Assembly (NCBI GenBank): GCA_018817905.1
Contig: JAHISS010000005.1
Span: 1-33,744 of the forward strand
DNA from: Nanobdellota archaeon
GTDB lineage: Archaea; Nanobdellota; Nanobdellia; Pacearchaeales; GW2011-AR1
Length of the DNA: 33,744 bases
Direction of reading: 5' to 3'
Every line of letters begins with the position of its first letter. Position 1 is the stretch's first letter. The notes below the pieces were generated by a model. It was not told the DNA's origin. It saw only the letters and a list, made by a program, of their open reading frames with translations, and ran no database searches. Both the position numbers and the translations under genes were made by a program. Shown here piece after piece: positions 12,920 through 28,698 of the stretch.

Positions 12920-12961
12920 ATGGCTTACATTGTCGAGAGTTTCAAAAGGCACAAGAAATGA
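12920..12961 (+). CDS. Thirteen-codon leader ORF before the protease gene
   Basis: ATG at 12920 opens a frame encoding MAYIVESFKRHKK, with its TGA overlapping the protease ATG as ATGA (12958-12961). Because the ATG is about 25 bases from the TATA element, it would be the leaderless first start codon of the mRNA, and the protease would be reached by termination and re-initiation. The protease ATG has no strong Shine-Dalgarno of its own (AAAAGGCAC at 12944-12952 is a weak match). The peptide's function, if any, is unknown. Confidence 0.4.
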   Translation: MAYIVESFKRHKK

Positions 12962-15900
12962 TAAATCATAAAATTGCATTAATAATAATACTCGTTGTAG
13001 TATTGTTTTCTGTAGGTTACCAACAAGTTAGTATAAGGGAGGAAGTAATCTCTTTTTTTAGTCCTAAGATAGATTCATCATCTCAATATTTATCCCAATA
13101 TTTGGATACAGGAAAAGCATGCAGGAGCGACCTGGATTGTGAACAGTGTGAATTATGTTCTGGTCCGCCAATCGATGATGAAATAATTCCGCAGCCTGGA
13201 GAAATAGTCAGCCAACCAAGTACAAGCCAAAGAATGGGCAGCATTACCACAAATGCGATCAGAAGAGGTTTTTATGGCAGTCAAATAGGAAAAACATGCA
13301 AAAGAATCCAAAACTGCAATCCGCCTCAACCGCCCTTCGGCTCTTTTACAGTCGAGGACGGTGAACCTATCATTGATGAGGATGATATTATTTATTTTTC
13401 CGCTGTCCCTACCTGCCTTACCCAAGAGATATTAGTTGAAGAAATCTTTACAGAAAGCACTGAGCTTGACATTGATTATGGGGGCAGAATTTCTTCGATT
13501 TCTTTTAGCGGGTCATTAGAGCTGTTGTCTCCGAGTGCATATGCGAGGATTATACTTACAGATTATAATGACAAAGAATTCAGCATCTTTAGCAGCGACT
13601 CTTTTATCCCATGTAACGATGATGAGATAAGAGTTAATATTAACAACTTTTGCGAAGAGACATGCAATATTCTAACTACGGATATCAAAAACCTAAAAGT
13701 AGAAATTAAAGATGCCTCCCTGACAATAGATAAATTCCATATCCTTGATGAGGACGGTAACTTTCCCCTATCACCCATCATTTTCCCAGAGGATTACTAT
13801 AAAGAACGACATCTTAATATTAAGATAAATATTCTTAATGAAAGGAACCAGAGAGAAGGACTTGACTGGATTGCTGGAGACTCTGAACCTTGCGGATTAG
13901 AATATTACGAAAAAAAGCAATTACTGGGTGTTGGAAAGAATGAAGAGCTTCCTAATCTTTGTGGTCTTGAGTGTTACAAGGGTGGGGTGTTTCAACGCAC
14001 AACAGAATCTGGAGGGGAAGGAAGAACAAGAGCAGATTCACTGCCAGAAAATTGGGATTGGAGAGATAGACATGGCGAGGATTGGACAACTCCTGTGAGA
14101 AATCAGCTTTTTTGTGGAAGCTGTTGGGCATTTTCTGCTGTTGGAGCTACAGAAGTTTTAACTAATCTATACTTCAATCAACATTTGAATCTAGACCTTT
14201 CAGAGCAGGAGTTAGTTTCTTGTGCGGCCGACATGGATTGTGGTTGTGATGGGTGGTCGCCAGGATTAGCATTAGATTATATTACAAATCATGGGGTGAG
14301 TGATAAAGACTGTTTCCTTTATCAAGCAATTGATGCATGTGGATGCAATGCATGGCTATGTATATTTCCACCTGTTAATTGTGATAATCTATGTACTAAT
14401 CCAAATGAACGAATAAGAATCAGTGGGAGAAATGAATTTACAGACGAAACAGAAGAAACATTAAAAACAATGATTATAGAAGACGGTGGGGTTGTTGGTG
14501 GAATATTAAGCTGGAATCATTCCATGAATTTAGTTGGATATGAGCGAGATACTGTAACAAGTGACACACTATGGGTATTTAAGAACAGCTGGGGAGAACT
14601 CTGGGGTGAAAGTGGCTATGTAACAATGACCATGAATATGTCAGATTTCGTAGGGACACGTTCATTATCAAACCCAATAATTAGCGAAATCCAGGATTAT
14701 ACTATATTATGCAATGACAAAGATGGAGATGGTTATTGCAATTGGGGCGTATCTAATAATAAACCAACTACTTGTCCTGCTAGTTGCAACGGGAATAATG
14801 AAAAAGATTGCGATGACAGCGATCCAGACAAAGGGCCATTTGATGAATATTATAATTGTGTTGCGATTGAAGACGTCGTTTTCCAATGTTCAGATGATAT
14901 CGACAATGACGGAGATGGAGTAAAAGATTATCCTAATGATTTCAGCTGTGTAGGTATCCATGATGATGATGAGACAAACCCAAAAGCAGAATGCCAAGAC
15001 GGATTAGATAACGATTGGGATGGTGTCAAAGATTATCCCAATGATGACAGCTGTTCGAGTTACCAAGACAATTATGAGGATTCACCGGACGTAGATCCTC
15101 AATGTGCAGACGGAGTGGATAATGACGGGGATGGTTTAACAGACTTGAATGATCCTGGCTGCGAAAACAATCAAGATGATAATGAAGCAGACGGGACTAG
15201 CCAATGCCAGGATGGAGTGGATAATGACGGTGATGGTGCAACAGATTATCCAAATGATTTTAGCTGCACCTCTTCAATTGATAATGATGAGGCAAATCCA
15301 AAAGCACAATGCCAAAATGGTATTGATGATGATAGTGATCGGGCAACAGATTATCCAGAAGATTTTAGCTGCTCAAGTTTCCAGGATACAAGTGAAACCA
15401 TACCCAGATCAGAATGCCAGAATAATCAAGATGATGATAGCGATGGTAAATCAGATTATCCGCACGATTTTAGTTGTTCAAGTTACCAAGACAATAGTGA
15501 AGACTATCCCCTAGCTAAATGCCAGGACGGGATAGATAATGATAATGACGGTCAGATAGACTGGCCTGCTGATTCAGGTTGTGTGAATGGTTTTCAAGAT
15601 AATTATGAATATGATTGTGGTGATGACAAAGTCAATCATGCATCTGAGGATTGCGATGGGACTGATCTTGCTGGTGAGACATGCATTACATTCGGATATA
15701 ACAGCGGCACTTTATCATGCGAGGATGATTGTAAGTTTGATCTTACTGAATGCTCATATGAACCTATGCCCGTATGCGGCAATGGAAATATCGAATACGG
15801 AGAGGATTGTGAACCTCCAAATGAGTTTGGCGGGATTACTTGCACCTCGCTGGGGTTTGATGGCGGAAATATGTTATGCACTGATAATTGCAGATTAGAC

Positions 15901-16881
15901 ACTTCAGAATGCACTGTTGAGTGTACAGGTTTTGGTGGATGGGAATATTATCCAGGATTCGCTAAATGCGTATGGGTTACTTACAATGCCAATGCTGATT
16001 ATAACACAGCTTTCCAGGCCTGTACTGACATCGACGGATATATGCCATATAGTAATGAACTCGGAGGATTATGCTCTGCGCAAGGATTCAGAATTAGGCC
16101 AGGTACTGATCTAACGGGTTCAGTGAGGACAAGAGATCTATATTTATCTGGACATAAGATGTGGCATGATAAAGGATTTCATTTTACAAGTGATGAATGT
16201 GGACAGGTTTATTATCAAACTTGTGGAACAACCGGGACAAACGCTAATTGCCAACCCGTTACTTCATGGTCCCAGGATAATACTCTAAGAAGTGGAATCA
16301 TTTGCCTCAAGGATCTCATTACAGTTCCTCGATGCGGTAACAATGATGTTGAAACAGGCGAAGAGTGTGACGATGGTAATAGAGATAATTATGATGGTTG
16401 TTCGATGAACTGTGAGGTGGACGATGGTTGGGAGTGCACTGGTAATCCAAGCGTGTGCACAAATCTCTGTGGTGATGGTTGGAGATATTATCCAGAGTTT
16501 GGAAGATGCATATATAATAGCAATGATTTTCAATTAACAAAAAAATATCCCCAGGCATTATCTTTCTGCCAGAGTGAAGGAGGATGGCTGCCTGGAAACT
16601 GGGAACTTGTAAGTCTATGCAACGATGATGACTTCCAGTTAAGACAAGGCACATGCAATGGACATAGATGCCAGGGTTCTGTCTGGACAACTGATGCATA
16701 TTCGGATGGCCATAAATTATGGCATGATAAAGGATATCATACCTACATAGAAAATTGCGGTGGCGAAATTGTATACAGTGTATGTGGCACAACCGCCATG
16801 AACAATGATTGTGTTGAGGTCAATAGCTGGAGTGGAGACTCTACTAGAAGAAGCTTCATTTGCCTTAAGAATCTGAATTGA
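12958..16881 (+). CDS. Secreted multidomain papain-family (C1A) cysteine protease
   Basis: A 1307-residue exported protein. Order: N-terminal hydrophobic signal/anchor (6-22); a Cys-containing region with a predicted beta-sandwich-like part (about 50-360); a papain domain starting LPENWDWRD with oxyanion Gln383, catalytic Cys389 in CGSCWAFSA, His521 and Asn543 in KNSWGELWGESGY; seven repeats of about 35 residues (about 645-885), typically CQDGVDNDGDG..DYPNDFSC; a Myxococcus-type Cys-rich unit (CGNGNIEYGEDCE, about 938); then two homologous domains of about 120-130 residues (about 991-1119 and 1171-1306) separated by a second CGNNDVETGEECDDGN unit. The repeats' Asp/Asn pattern suggests calcium binding. 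The paired C-terminal domains have conserved Trp/Cys spacing that recalls C-type-lectin-like folds, uncertain. Codons favour GAT/AAT/TGT, unlike neighbours, which suggests transfer. Confidence 0.9.
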   Translation: MINHKIALIIILVVVLFSVGYQQVSIREEVISFFSPKIDSSSQYLSQYLDTGKACRSDLDCEQCELCSGPPIDDEIIPQPGEIVSQPSTSQRMGSITTNAIRRGFYGSQIGKTCKRIQNCNPPQPPFGSFTVEDGEPIIDEDDIIYFSAVPTCLTQEILVEEIFTESTELDIDYGGRISSISFSGSLELLSPSAYARIILTDYNDKEFSIFSSDSFIPCNDDEIRVNINNFCEETCNILTTDIKNLKVEIKDASLTIDKFHILDEDGNFPLSPIIFPEDYYKERHLNIKINILNERNQREGLDWIAGDSEPCGLEYYEKKQLLGVGKNEELPNLCGLECYKGGVFQRTTESGGEGRTRADSLPENWDWRDRHGEDWTTPVRNQLFCGSCWAFSAVGATEVLTNLYFNQHLNLDLSEQELVSCAADMDCGCDGWSPGLALDYITNHGVSDKDCFLYQAIDACGCNAWLCIFPPVNCDNLCTNPNERIRISGRNEFTDETEETLKTMIIEDGGVVGGILSWNHSMNLVGYERDTVTSDTLWVFKNSWGELWGESGYVTMTMNMSDFVGTRSLSNPIISEIQDYTILCNDKDGDGYCNWGVSNNKPTTCPASCNGNNEKDCDDSDPDKGPFDEYYNCVAIEDVVFQCSDDIDNDGDGVKDYPNDFSCVGIHDDDETNPKAECQDGLDNDWDGVKDYPNDDSCSSYQDNYEDSPDVDPQCADGVDNDGDGLTDLNDPGCENNQDDNEADGTSQCQDGVDNDGDGATDYPNDFSCTSSIDNDEANPKAQCQNGIDDDSDRATDYPEDFSCSSFQDTSETIPRSECQNNQDDDSDGKSDYPHDFSCSSYQDNSEDYPLAKCQDGIDNDNDGQIDWPADSGCVNGFQDNYEYDCGDDKVNHASEDCDGTDLAGETCITFGYNSGTLSCEDDCKFDLTECSYEPMPVCGNGNIEYGEDCEPPNEFGGITCTSLGFDGGNMLCTDNCRLDTSECTVECTGFGGWEYYPGFAKCVWVTYNANADYNTAFQACTDIDGYMPYSNELGGLCSAQGFRIRPGTDLTGSVRTRDLYLSGHKMWHDKGFHFTSDECGQVYYQTCGTTGTNANCQPVTSWSQDNTLRSGIICLKDLITVPRCGNNDVETGEECDDGNRDNYDGCSMNCEVDDGWECTGNPSVCTNLCGDGWRYYPEFGRCIYNSNDFQLTKKYPQALSFCQSEGGWLPGNWELVSLCNDDDFQLRQGTCNGHRCQGSVWTTDAYSDGHKLWHDKGYHTYIENCGGEIVYSVCGTTAMNNDCVEVNSWSGDSTRRSFICLKNLN
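14882..15612 (+). repeat. Seven in-frame Asp/Asn-rich coding repeats
   Basis: Seven tandem units of about 100-110 bases within the protease gene. Each encodes C-x-(D/N)-x-(I/V/L)-D-(N/D)-D-x-D-x-x-x-D followed by a YPxDxSC-type half and an acidic spacer. Units are similar but not identical at DNA level, so this is an old or selected array rather than a recent slippage product. Confidence 0.85.
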
Positions 16882-17873: not shown

Positions 17874-17989
17874 GTCCCGGTAGCTCAGCTGGTTAGAGCG
17901 CGTGGCTGTTAGTGTGAGAAGCTTTGCTTCAAATACGTTAGCAAATAGCAGATACCATGAGGTCGTTGGTTCGAGTCCAGCCCGGGACG
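17874..17989 (+). tRNA. tRNA-Asn(GTT) with a 42-base intron
   Basis: The acceptor stem GTCCCGG (17874-17880) pairs perfectly with CCGGGAC (17982-17988), with G73 at 17989, the Asn discriminator. The D arm is GCTC/GAGC; the anticodon stem CGTGG pairs with CCATG; the loop reads C-T-G-T-T-A before the intron, giving anticodon GTT; the T arm is GTTGG-TTCGAGT-CCAGC with one G-T pair. CCA is not encoded. The intron occupies the canonical 37/38 position. The matching AsnRS gene is at 648. Confidence 0.93.
17912..17953 (+). other. tRNA intron with bulge-helix-bulge pairing
   Basis: A 42-base intron between positions 37 and 38. CTGTTA (17906-17911) can pair with TAGCAG (17946-17951) through one G-U pair, giving the central helix recognised by the archaeal tRNA splicing endonuclease. 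An internal GAAGC-TTT-GCTTC hairpin caps the intron. The exact cut sites are inferred from restoring a normal anticodon loop. Confidence 0.85.
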
Positions 17990-18019
17990 TTTCTATTTTG
18001 ACAAGTTACCCCTCCACCT

Positions 18020-18275
18020 CTACAAATCCAACTAATCCGATATTATCCAAAACTCAATTAATGTTGCATCCGATTGGTTTTATTATTAATCTAATGAGTT
18101 GGTTGGAAGTGAAACTATTTTTTCACAAGTTAATGCCCTTCGGGCAGCTCCATCTTCTTAGCAGATTTTTTCGATTATTGAATTTTAATTTCGAGGGCGG
18201 GAGCTGGAGGCGGTCGAAATTCAAATTCGATGGGTGTGCGGGACGAATGTCGAAAAAATCTGCGTTTATACTTTA
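18020..18275. repeat. Composite palindromic repeat, compact copy (D)
   Basis: Modules in order: a stem formed by CCAACTAA and TTGGTTGG; a GTGAAA/TTTCAC hairpin; TGCCC-TTC-GGGCA (18134-18146); and a closed unit with a perfect 14-bp stem GCAGATTTTTTCGA (18161-18174) / TCGAAAAAATCTGC (18250-18263) that encloses a second stem, 18180-18194 with 18214-18228 (14 of 15 pair). The same modules occur near 20150-20250, 26955-27535 and 28740-28975. This copy has the empty site of the 216-bp insertion described at 27222. Confidence 0.75.
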
Positions 18276-18408
18276 AGTACAGAAAATTAAAAAAGAATTT
18301 GTTTTTCTTCATCTTCCAAAAAAACTTAAATCCAATGAAAAAAATCTCCGTCGACAAATATCAAATTAAAAATTTCCCTTTTTGATAAAAAAAGTTTTCA
18401 CGATAAAT

Positions 18409-18420: not shown

Positions 18421-18460
18421 AATTCTTAGTTAGACTACACTAAAAGAGGTGTTACTCAAA

Positions 18461-18532
18461 ATGCCAAAGAAAAAAGCAAAAAAGAAAAAAGCCGTGAAGA
18501 AGAAGGCAACTAAGAAAAAGAAGAAGAAATAA
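18461..18532 (+). CDS. 23-residue lysine-rich basic peptide
   Basis: The peptide begins MPKKKAKKKKAV and continues KKKATKKKKKK; 16 of 23 residues are Lys, the rest Ala, Thr, Val, Pro and the initial Met. Both AAA and AAG codons are used, so it is not a simple A-tract. It has a TATA box, a Shine-Dalgarno at good spacing and a long T-rich terminator, which together argue that it is a real gene. Composition resembles the basic tails of linker histones and Lys-rich chromatin proteins, so nucleic-acid binding or charge neutralisation is a reasonable inference. The family is unknown to me. Confidence 0.7.
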   Translation: MPKKKAKKKKAVKKKATKKKKKK

Positions 18533-18537
18533 CCGCT

Positions 18538-18606
18538 TTGTCTTCTTCTTAATTAGTTTTTATTTTTAACTTGTCGAAACCTTATTCTTTTTATTTTTTA
18601 TTTTTA
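18538..18606 (+). terminator. T-rich terminator between the lysine-rich peptide gene and the KH gene
   Basis: Downstream of the peptide stop are several runs of three to six T, ending in a dense T block at 18588-18607. No hairpin is evident; a U-tract terminator fits archaeal practice. It overlaps the 3' end of the convergent KH gene. Confidence 0.6.
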
Positions 18607-19101
18607 TTTAACAATCGAAAAATCAGATTTATCAAGCGTATTCATTTTCTCAAGGTATCTGTAAACATTGGACTGTTTTGAACCTTTGATTATATTAATA
18701 ATCGCTGTTTCAGTATCTTCCACATCTTCAGCATCACCGATAATCCCGACTTCTCCTTCTTTTATCAAAACCTCGCAGCCAGAAATCAAAGAAATCGTTC
18801 TCCTGGTTTTCCCTTTCTTGCCTATCAAACGCGATTTAACAACTTTCAAATTTCTTTTCGTGTAATCTTTTATATGAACCACTCTAAAAACAAAATCTTC
18901 TTCCTTTAACAAAAGCGCTTTTTTAACTGAAAAACCAAAATTAACCGCGTCAAAAAAAATGCGCGCGTCATACTCGTCCAAAGAAGAACCATCGATAACA
19001 ACGTTCCTTCCTAAAATTTTTATTTTGACGTTCAACTTTTTTTCCAACTGCAATTTCAACTTTTCAACTTCTCTCATCCTTTTAACGTAAATTGTTTCCA
19101 T
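18604..19101 (-). CDS. KH-domain RNA-binding protein (Dim2/Krr1-like)
   Basis: A 165-residue protein with two KH-like halves. The second contains the diagnostic loop RLIGKKGKTRRTIS (IGxxGxxxxxI) followed by GCEVLIKEGEVGIIGDAEDVE. The first half (VKIKILGRNVVIDGSSLDEYDARIFFDAVNFGF) is a degenerate KH. Archaeal Dim2-type proteins bind 16S rRNA near its 3' end and take part in small-subunit maturation; here that role is inferred from the family. It is the third gene of a probable aIF2-beta/DUF424/KH operon, 34 bases after DUF424. Confidence 0.85.
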   Translation of the reverse strand: METIYVKRMREVEKLKLQLEKKLNVKIKILGRNVVIDGSSLDEYDARIFFDAVNFGFSVKKALLLKEEDFVFRVVHIKDYTKRNLKVVKSRLIGKKGKTRRTISLISGCEVLIKEGEVGIIGDAEDVEDTETAIINIIKGSKQSNVYRYLEKMNTLDKSDFSIVK

Positions 19102-27437: not shown

Positions 27438-27605
27438 ATTGAATTTTAATTTCGAGGGCGGGAGGTGGGGGCGGTCGAAACTCAAATTCGAAAGGGAGGG
27501 CGGGACGAATATCAAAAAAATCTGCGTTTATACTTATACAGAAATAACTCCAATTACTTTAATAAGTAACGAAAGTTATTTAAATAAGTAATCTTAATAA
27601 AATCA

Positions 27606-28223
27606 ATGTTATCAAACGAGAAAGTAATGTTGTTAGAAGTATGGAGAAAGAATCTATTTAGAGAACTAAGCATAGCAGAGATTATGAAAGAATCAGGGAA
27701 AAAAACAAAAACCTGGGTTTTCAACGCGTTAAAATTATTAGTTAGTAATAATGTTTTAAATTCGACACGAAAAGCTAATCTTGACATTTACAGATTTAAC
27801 TTGGAAAATCCCCTGTCTTTGCAGTTACTGCAATATTTAGAAGCCCAAAGCAACTTGAGCTTTTCACAACTAAATATTATATCTGAAATAATTGAAAAAA
27901 TACCAGTTAAAAACTGCTCGATTATTGTGTTTGGCAGTTATGCAGAAAATAAGCAGACAAAGAACTCTGATTTGGACCTTTGTATACTTATAGAAAATAA
28001 AGAAGTTGAAAAGAAAATTAAGCCGTATATTAATGAAATAAAATTAAATCATCCCATAAAAATTGATGAGCATTACGTAACTTCTGAAGATTTTGTAAAG
28101 ATGCTTTTGCACGAAGAAGAAAACCTTGCAAAACAAATTTTTATAAAGCACAGACTATTTTATAACTCTGACACGTATTACCAATTATTAAAAGAGGCAT
28201 ATAAGCATGGATTCAGATCGTAA
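27606..28223 (+). CDS. Winged-helix/nucleotidyltransferase fusion (MNT partner of HEPN)
   Basis: A 205-residue protein: N-terminal winged helix (VWRKNLFRELSIAEIMKESGKKTKTWVFNALKLLVSNNVL, about 12-60) and a nucleotidyltransferase domain with IVFGSYAENKQTKNSDLDLCILIE (GS...DLD, about 100-123) and the third carboxylate in IKIDEHYV. The fusion suggests an autoregulating antitoxin-like protein. It overlaps the following HEPN gene by 17 bases, the usual coupling of such pairs. A TATA box TTATTTAAATAAG lies about 25 bases upstream of the ATG. Confidence 0.8.
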   Translation: MLSNEKVMLLEVWRKNLFRELSIAEIMKESGKKTKTWVFNALKLLVSNNVLNSTRKANLDIYRFNLENPLSLQLLQYLEAQSNLSFSQLNIISEIIEKIPVKNCSIIVFGSYAENKQTKNSDLDLCILIENKEVEKKIKPYINEIKLNHPIKIDEHYVTSEDFVKMLLHEEENLAKQIFIKHRLFYNSDTYYQLLKEAYKHGFRS

Positions 28224-28698
28224 AGAAGTGCTATATTTGAATAGGGCAAAGAACGAATTGGATTTGGCCAACGCCGTGTTCAAAATTTCAACAGAGACGA
28301 AGATTAAACTTGATTTGGAGCTGAAAGAAGATTCAACATTTTTTAGCAATGTGATAAGCAATTCATATTATTGCATATTCTACTCCGCAAAAGCGTTTCT
28401 TTATACTAAAAGAATAATCACAATGCCGCCGGAAGAACACAAAAAAACGCTGGAGGAATTTGAGAAGTTGGCGGATTCTGGAGAAATTGATGAAGAGCTT
28501 GTCAATATATACAAAGATATTGTAATAAAGGCAGAAGAGCTTTTAGGAATTTTTGCAAAGGAAAAATCAAAGCGTGGAAAGTTTACGTATAGAATGTTAC
28601 CTCAAACAAATCTTGGCCCGGCAAAAGAAAGCTTAGAAAATGCGGAAAAGTTTTACAAAAATATCAATCTTATTGTAAGCAGAAATAAAACTAAATAA
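28207..28698 (+). CDS. HEPN-domain protein (partner of the nucleotidyltransferase)
   Basis: A 163-residue helical protein. The N-terminal half contains LNRAKNELDLANAVF and ISNSYYCIFYSAKAFL, the helix 1-helix 2 pattern of HEPN proteins. The Rx4-6H RNase motif is not found: the expected position reads KRGKFTYRM, with Arg and Tyr but no His. This HEPN may thus lack RNase activity or use another site, unlike the HepT at 9825. It starts inside the upstream gene. The pair is followed by repeat-rich sequence. Confidence 0.75.
   Translation: MDSDRKEVLYLNRAKNELDLANAVFKISTETKIKLDLELKEDSTFFSNVISNSYYCIFYSAKAFLYTKRIITMPPEEHKKTLEEFEKLADSGEIDEELVNIYKDIVIKAEELLGIFAKEKSKRGKFTYRMLPQTNLGPAKESLENAEKFYKNINLIVSRNKTK

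Follow-up and report, generated by a model that had tools for sequence, protein, structure and literature searches.

Low-complexity proteins with Lys/Ala repeats, resembling the tail of linker histone H1, are known from bacteria, where the 352-aa AlgP, for instance, combines a helical N-terminal part with KPAA repeats (PMC9239181). Among ribosomal proteins, eL41 has 25 aa in eukaryotes and 37 aa in archaea, and has remained unidentified in some archaeal genomes, possibly through its size (PMC7005279). A global catalogue of small ORFs records a high density of them in Nanoarchaeota (PMC11364881); since its predictions start at 30 nt, single members of the family described here may be in it. No earlier description of a lysine-rich micro-protein family in these archaea was found in the open-access literature searched.

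The window, i.e., the whole stretch of 33,744 nucleotides that was analysed, belongs to a draft genome of 1.19 Mb in 140 contigs, which is 82% complete. The first-pass annotation had singled out in it a 23-codon ORF as a real micro-gene with full signals, overlooked by annotation, and this proposal is strongly supported by our comparison with relatives and by control searches. The ORF is very probably a real, overlooked gene of a micro-protein family of Pacearchaeota and the wider small-genome class, across which its versions have 11-77 residues, consist almost only of lysine, arginine and alanine, and possess expression signals of their own.

The micro-gene and its surroundings

The features of the locus are the following:

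17874-17989: intron-bearing tRNA gene, probably tRNA-Asn (GTT), interrupted after the anticodon; detected by Rfam but not by ARAGORN
18001-18290, second copy at 27438-27544: dispersed repeat, matched about 47 more times elsewhere in the genome
18408-18415, + strand: TATA box TTTATAAA, in the context GATAAATTTATAAACAAAAA, forming the gene's own promoter 53 nt upstream of the ATG (read directly)
18446-18451, + strand: Shine-Dalgarno sequence (SD) GAGGTG, with a 9-nt spacing to the ATG (read directly)
18461-18532, + strand: micro-gene, product MPKKKAKKKKAVKKKATKKKKKK (23 aa), with orthologues and class-wide members
18557-18567, + strand: T-tract terminator TTTTTATTTTT, a U-tract of the archaeal kind (read directly)
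18604-19101, - strand: aDim2, a Krr1/Pno1-type KH protein (Pfam KH_KRR1_2nd above cut-off), convergent synteny anchor and not part of the micro-gene

The micro-gene thus sits between the tRNA gene and the convergent aDim2 gene. The TATA box, the SD 9 nt before the ATG, the stop and the T-rich terminator, all previously proposed to frame the ORF, were each found at their sites on re-reading. The ORF is made of 23 sense codons and one TAA stop, and the lysines of its product, as read from the sequence, bring 16 side-chain charges and are encoded by 9 AAG and 7 AAA codons. This mixture had been taken to make an artefact unlikely; the codon count agrees with it, and chance is excluded via the relatives (see below). 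The in-frame GTG at 18449, which overlaps the SD, is unlikely to be the start codon. No hairpin terminator was detected at the micro-gene by a hairpin-terminator scan, which is, like the sigma-70 scan, unsuited to archaea, and no Pfam or NCBIfam family matches the micro-protein above cut-off.

In many relatives, tRNA genes are also found at the corresponding place. The dispersed repeat is MITE-like and composed of two modules, at about 18001-18132 and 18125-18290, the second of which contains a perfect 14-nt inverted repeat (GCAGATTTTTTCGA/TCGAAAAAATCTGC, at 18161-18174 and 18250-18263); an origin of the ORF from this repeat was weighed and discarded, as the repeat stops about 120 bp upstream of the TATA box. 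Further away, the 1307-aa product of 12958-16881, which may be a large surface protease, contains a papain-family peptidase domain and weakly matches DUF4215, and the adjacent nucleotidyltransferase and HEPN-type genes at 27606-28698 resemble an MNT/HEPN toxin-antitoxin pair.

Conservation in relatives and control searches

Within the genus, aDim2 is present in all 10 genomes, and an in-frame Lys-rich micro-ORF of 14-48 aa is convergent to it in 8 of the 9 other congeners. Its length differences are whole codons, and the nearest relative has MPAKKKKATKKKTTKKKKKR downstream of TAAAAGAGGTGTTACTAAAA, with a leader nearly identical to that of the window. Frameshifts or loss of the start codon in close relatives had been set beforehand as the outcome that would speak against the gene; they were looked for, and 8 of 9 congeners retain the ORF. 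Conservation of the promoter and SD, also put forward for checking, is borne out, as the TATA box recurs in the congeners and the SD is mostly kept, while the upstream flanks are dissimilar. At the aDim2 locus of one congener (G005), a tRNA gene is there and the Lys-rich ORF is absent.

The search for Lys/Ala-rich mini-ORFs beside aDim2, suggested by the first-pass annotation, was performed at 57 distinct loci of the family, chosen by position and not by SD, each having 250 nt or more of 3' flank. A K/R-rich, acid-poor ORF of 12-77 aa, convergent to aDim2, is found at 21 of these loci, compared with 3 such ORFs on the other strand of these stretches; the other 36 loci have none at that place. 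Although these orthologues were picked by position, most of them possess an SD. Two members start with GTG (L031 and L073), and Arg-rich forms occur in sister genera (e.g., MAARRRRTRKTTARRTTARRATARRTTRKTTARRTTRKTTARRKR).

An HMM search with the micro-protein alignment was insensitive and failed to find even the copy in the window; the class-level search therefore relied on DNA patterns and synteny. The first pattern (GGTG, 2-14 nt, ATG, Ala/Pro, Lys/Arg codons at both ends, stop) matches in 23 of 181 family genomes and gives no match when reversed. A second form gives about 90 matches in 74 of 378 class genomes, and 3 when reversed. When the SD of this second pattern is swapped for CCAC, a single match, unrelated and acidic, is obtained in 111 genomes, compared with 17 matched genomes among the same 111 for the true GGTG pattern. 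Under a fifth-order Markov model, for which the fetched loci served as the training set, the expectation per 1-Mb genome is 0.05 for the first pattern and 0.019 for the second. Once translated, 64 of 71 checked matches end in frame where one third is expected, which is an upper figure since the checked list left out some matches plainly not K-rich. The in-frame peptides have 11-22 residues and are spread over 22 family-level groups; their 990 residues comprise K 506, A 208, R 102, T 37, S 34, P 13, G 13 and V 9 and, start Met aside, E 2, D 1 and Q 1, that is, 3 acidic residues in 990 despite purine-rich DNA. Because the patterns are narrow, these counts do not amount to prevalence: the second pattern misses the window's own genome, which has the micro-gene, and genomes without a match may still carry one. 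The phylum-level search reached no class beyond the micro-gene's own.

Signals and composition were assessed over 68 members, selected for the SD and not for the TATA box or the terminator. A perfect TATA match lies 30-75 nt upstream in 35 of them, compared with 6% of control positions, its distance being mostly 39-55 nt in aDim2-linked members; in 58 members, a 15-nt stretch with 12 or more T lies within 55 nt after the stop, compared with 4% of control positions. The N-terminus is M-Ala or M-Pro in 65/68 members and the C-terminus KK, KR or RR in 67/68. The overall composition is K 46, A 19, R 17, T 9, S 3 and P 2% (proline 1.6%); the absence of D and E from this set is partly due to the selection filter, the unfiltered list of 64 peptides being nearly alike. 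W, Y, L, I and H are absent too, which is partly imposed by the filter and true also of the unfiltered in-frame peptides.

The association with aDim2 is local, as other clades have other neighbour genes. aDim2 is the neighbour at 18 loci. In other families, a second neighbourhood places the micro-gene after a TatD-like gene (11 loci, 9 of which have a convergent metallophosphoesterase-like gene), both names being our reading of the sequences and not the result of a family search. In L118 and L119, the micro-gene adjoins the same 400-residue protein, and further loci have different genes. Neighbours that are constant inside clades and differ between them speak for vertical inheritance and make a role bound to an operon or specific to aDim2 less likely. 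Form, signals and composition lead us to infer homology between clades, which low-complexity sequence cannot prove, and the micro-gene may have arisen more than once. Two copies (L033, L132 and L134) or two matches (G073, G195 and G243) are present in some genomes. In L132 (minus-strand starts at 1511 and 2012), L033 and L134, two different Lys/Arg-rich micro-genes lie a few hundred bases apart, each with an SD.

Possible functions of the peptide

A free-standing action on DNA, like that of an H1 tail, is the function that we rank first on the basis of sequence, with a confidence that is balanced rather than high; the nucleoid is, in our judgement, the most likely target. Of the roles put forward in the first-pass annotation, chromatin compaction and a charge balance of RNA or ribosomes may each apply. 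A monocistronic mRNA, transcribed from the gene's own TATA promoter and carrying a strong SD, would yield the peptide in quantity. With 11-77 residues of K, R, A, T, S, P, G and V, it would adopt no stable fold and would bind phosphate backbones through its charge. DNA would thereby be neutralised and compacted, as by the H1 C-terminal tail without a globular domain, with the divergent histone-fold protein of some genomes as a putative partner on the same DNA. Selection would then act on charge and composition, and not on exact sequence or length.

The length range of 11-77 aa and the exchange of K and R fit such an unfolded polycation, and some members, such as MPKKTARKTAKKAGKKKAVKRKAAKKRK, resemble an H1 tail, as does the composition of the family; H1-like models are also the best matches, weak and far below cut-off, of two longer members. 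The 74-residue member L103:1511 (MPKKKKTTKKKVAKRKPVKKKK...), with repeated KPVKKK units, is the most H1-like of all. The divergent histone-fold gene is found in 5 of 10 congeners, including the window's genome, with a stop codon within 3 of the 5 matches. Candidate minimal histones of the genus are the small proteins encoded at L093:1459-1710 and L096:1456-1719, whose divergent histone folds score 24.9 and 22.6 bits against CBFD_NFYB_HMF and whose genes adjoin nucleotidyltransferase-like genes. Several points count against the H1-tail-like function: the composition by itself does not distinguish a DNA from an RNA target, the family is proline-poor (1.6%) whereas H1 tails and AlgP are proline-rich, 11 residues are short for a chromatin organiser, and the micro-gene is missing from the aDim2 locus in G005 and at 36/57 family loci.

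An RNA target would be involved if the micro-protein were associated with the ribosome or its assembly, in a role like that of eL41 or of another tiny basic ribosomal protein, which we rank second and regard as rather unlikely. Size and charge agree with eL41, and aDim2 is, by family, a ribosome-assembly factor; but the neighbours are others in other clades. Five members compared with Ribosomal_L41 (PF05162) give no match at E up to 10, the members lack W, Y, L, I and H, although this is partly filter-imposed, and the sevenfold length range does not resemble a fixed ribosomal helix. A genome search with PF05162 weighs neither way, since even the M. jannaschii positive control stays below the cut-off; its short-frame matches are not Lys/Ala-rich micro-ORFs.

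It is improbable, though in keeping with part of the data, that the peptide is an encoded polyamine substitute, or a general counter-ion for RNA, DNA or polyphosphate where spermidine synthesis is low. With their 7-8 charges, the 11-aa peptides resemble polyamines. Spermine_synth is above cut-off in 13 of 57 class genomes (strongly in 1) compared with 10 of 14 control genomes. Some Woesearchaeota carry polyamine genes, however, which counts against a polyamine substitute (PMC10407285). Spermine_synth is unmatched in G001 and in the window's own genome, where the lack of a match is weakened as evidence by a completeness of 82%.

Runs of Lys codons slow ribosomes, and this counts for a reading in which the peptide is irrelevant and the ORF acts as a lysine-codon leader or as a regulatory RNA. 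We consider it very improbable: the 3' neighbour is convergent at aDim2 loci and most TatD-like loci, a T-tract directly follows the ORF, the contexts vary from clade to clade, and the amino-acid composition is retained despite varying codons. A lysine leader peptide was rejected on these grounds.

There is still less reason to think of a secreted membrane-active or antimicrobial peptide, as the first-pass annotation had among its proposals. The peptide is indeed short and cationic, but that role is unsupported: it has no signal peptide, its only hydrophobic residues are Ala, Val and the start Met, it has no hydrophobic or amphipathic face, and its gene lies in fixed neighbourhoods within clades. 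Finally, a chance A-rich ORF or low-complexity artefact has a negligible probability, even though the genome is AT-rich and low complexity defeats the usual homology statistics, because position, promoter, SD and frame are kept in the genus and in many class members against the Markov expectation, and the opposite-strand, reversed-pattern, SD-swap and TATA/terminator controls agree.

More broadly, and tentatively, the reduced-genome archaeal class could depend on an encoded polycation replacing linker-histone tails or polyamines; with members of as few as 11 residues (e.g., MAAKKKAKKRR), its family would rank among the smallest known for conserved proteins and would have escaped annotation due to its size.

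Comparison with known systems

Confirmation would lower the size known for proteins that are widely conserved and expressed independently, and would imply that gene calling can overlook a family across at least 22 family-level groups. It would make the neutralising and packing of nucleic acids in small-genome archaea testable, and would provide a natural minimal H1-like tail without a globular domain.

For the H1-tail-like function that we favour, the nearest comparison is the C-terminal tail of linker histone H1, likewise Lys/Ala-rich, with Thr/Ser present and acidic residues scarce, length-variable and presumably unfolded. The Lys/Ala-rich composition of such a tail is found over the 68 members, for which disorder is probable. 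Unlike H1, the micro-protein is archaeal, proline-poor and 11-77 aa in total, without a globular winged-helix: no such domain is found in the 23-aa peptide (relatives 11-77 aa), with no Pfam match above cut-off. The archaeal HMf-type histones are folded proteins with a histone fold of 65-90 aa; the 23-aa peptide is too short for this fold (CBFD_NFYB_HMF) and has no Pfam match to it, and the histone is here a separate, divergent gene and a candidate DNA partner. Protamines are also short, nearly pure polycations, but are Arg-rich, sperm-specific and eukaryotic.

Like the micro-protein, eL41 is small (25-37 aa), strongly basic and easily missed in annotation (PMC7005279). It differs in being helical and of near-fixed length, its profile does not match the micro-protein, and its site is h27/h44/h45 of the small subunit. 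The bacterial H1-like proteins (AlgP, PhaF tails, chlamydial HC2 and the H1-like proteins of Burkholderiales) share low-complexity K/A repeats with the micro-protein but are far longer, the HC2 model having 194 positions. The longer members that were tested stay below the cut-offs of the curated profiles, the best weak matches of two of them being 13.4 bits for HC2 (cut-off 40) and 6.9 bits for Burkholderia H1-like (cut-off 80). The micro-protein family is best called an addition to a known kind, that of the H1-like, Lys-rich basic proteins.
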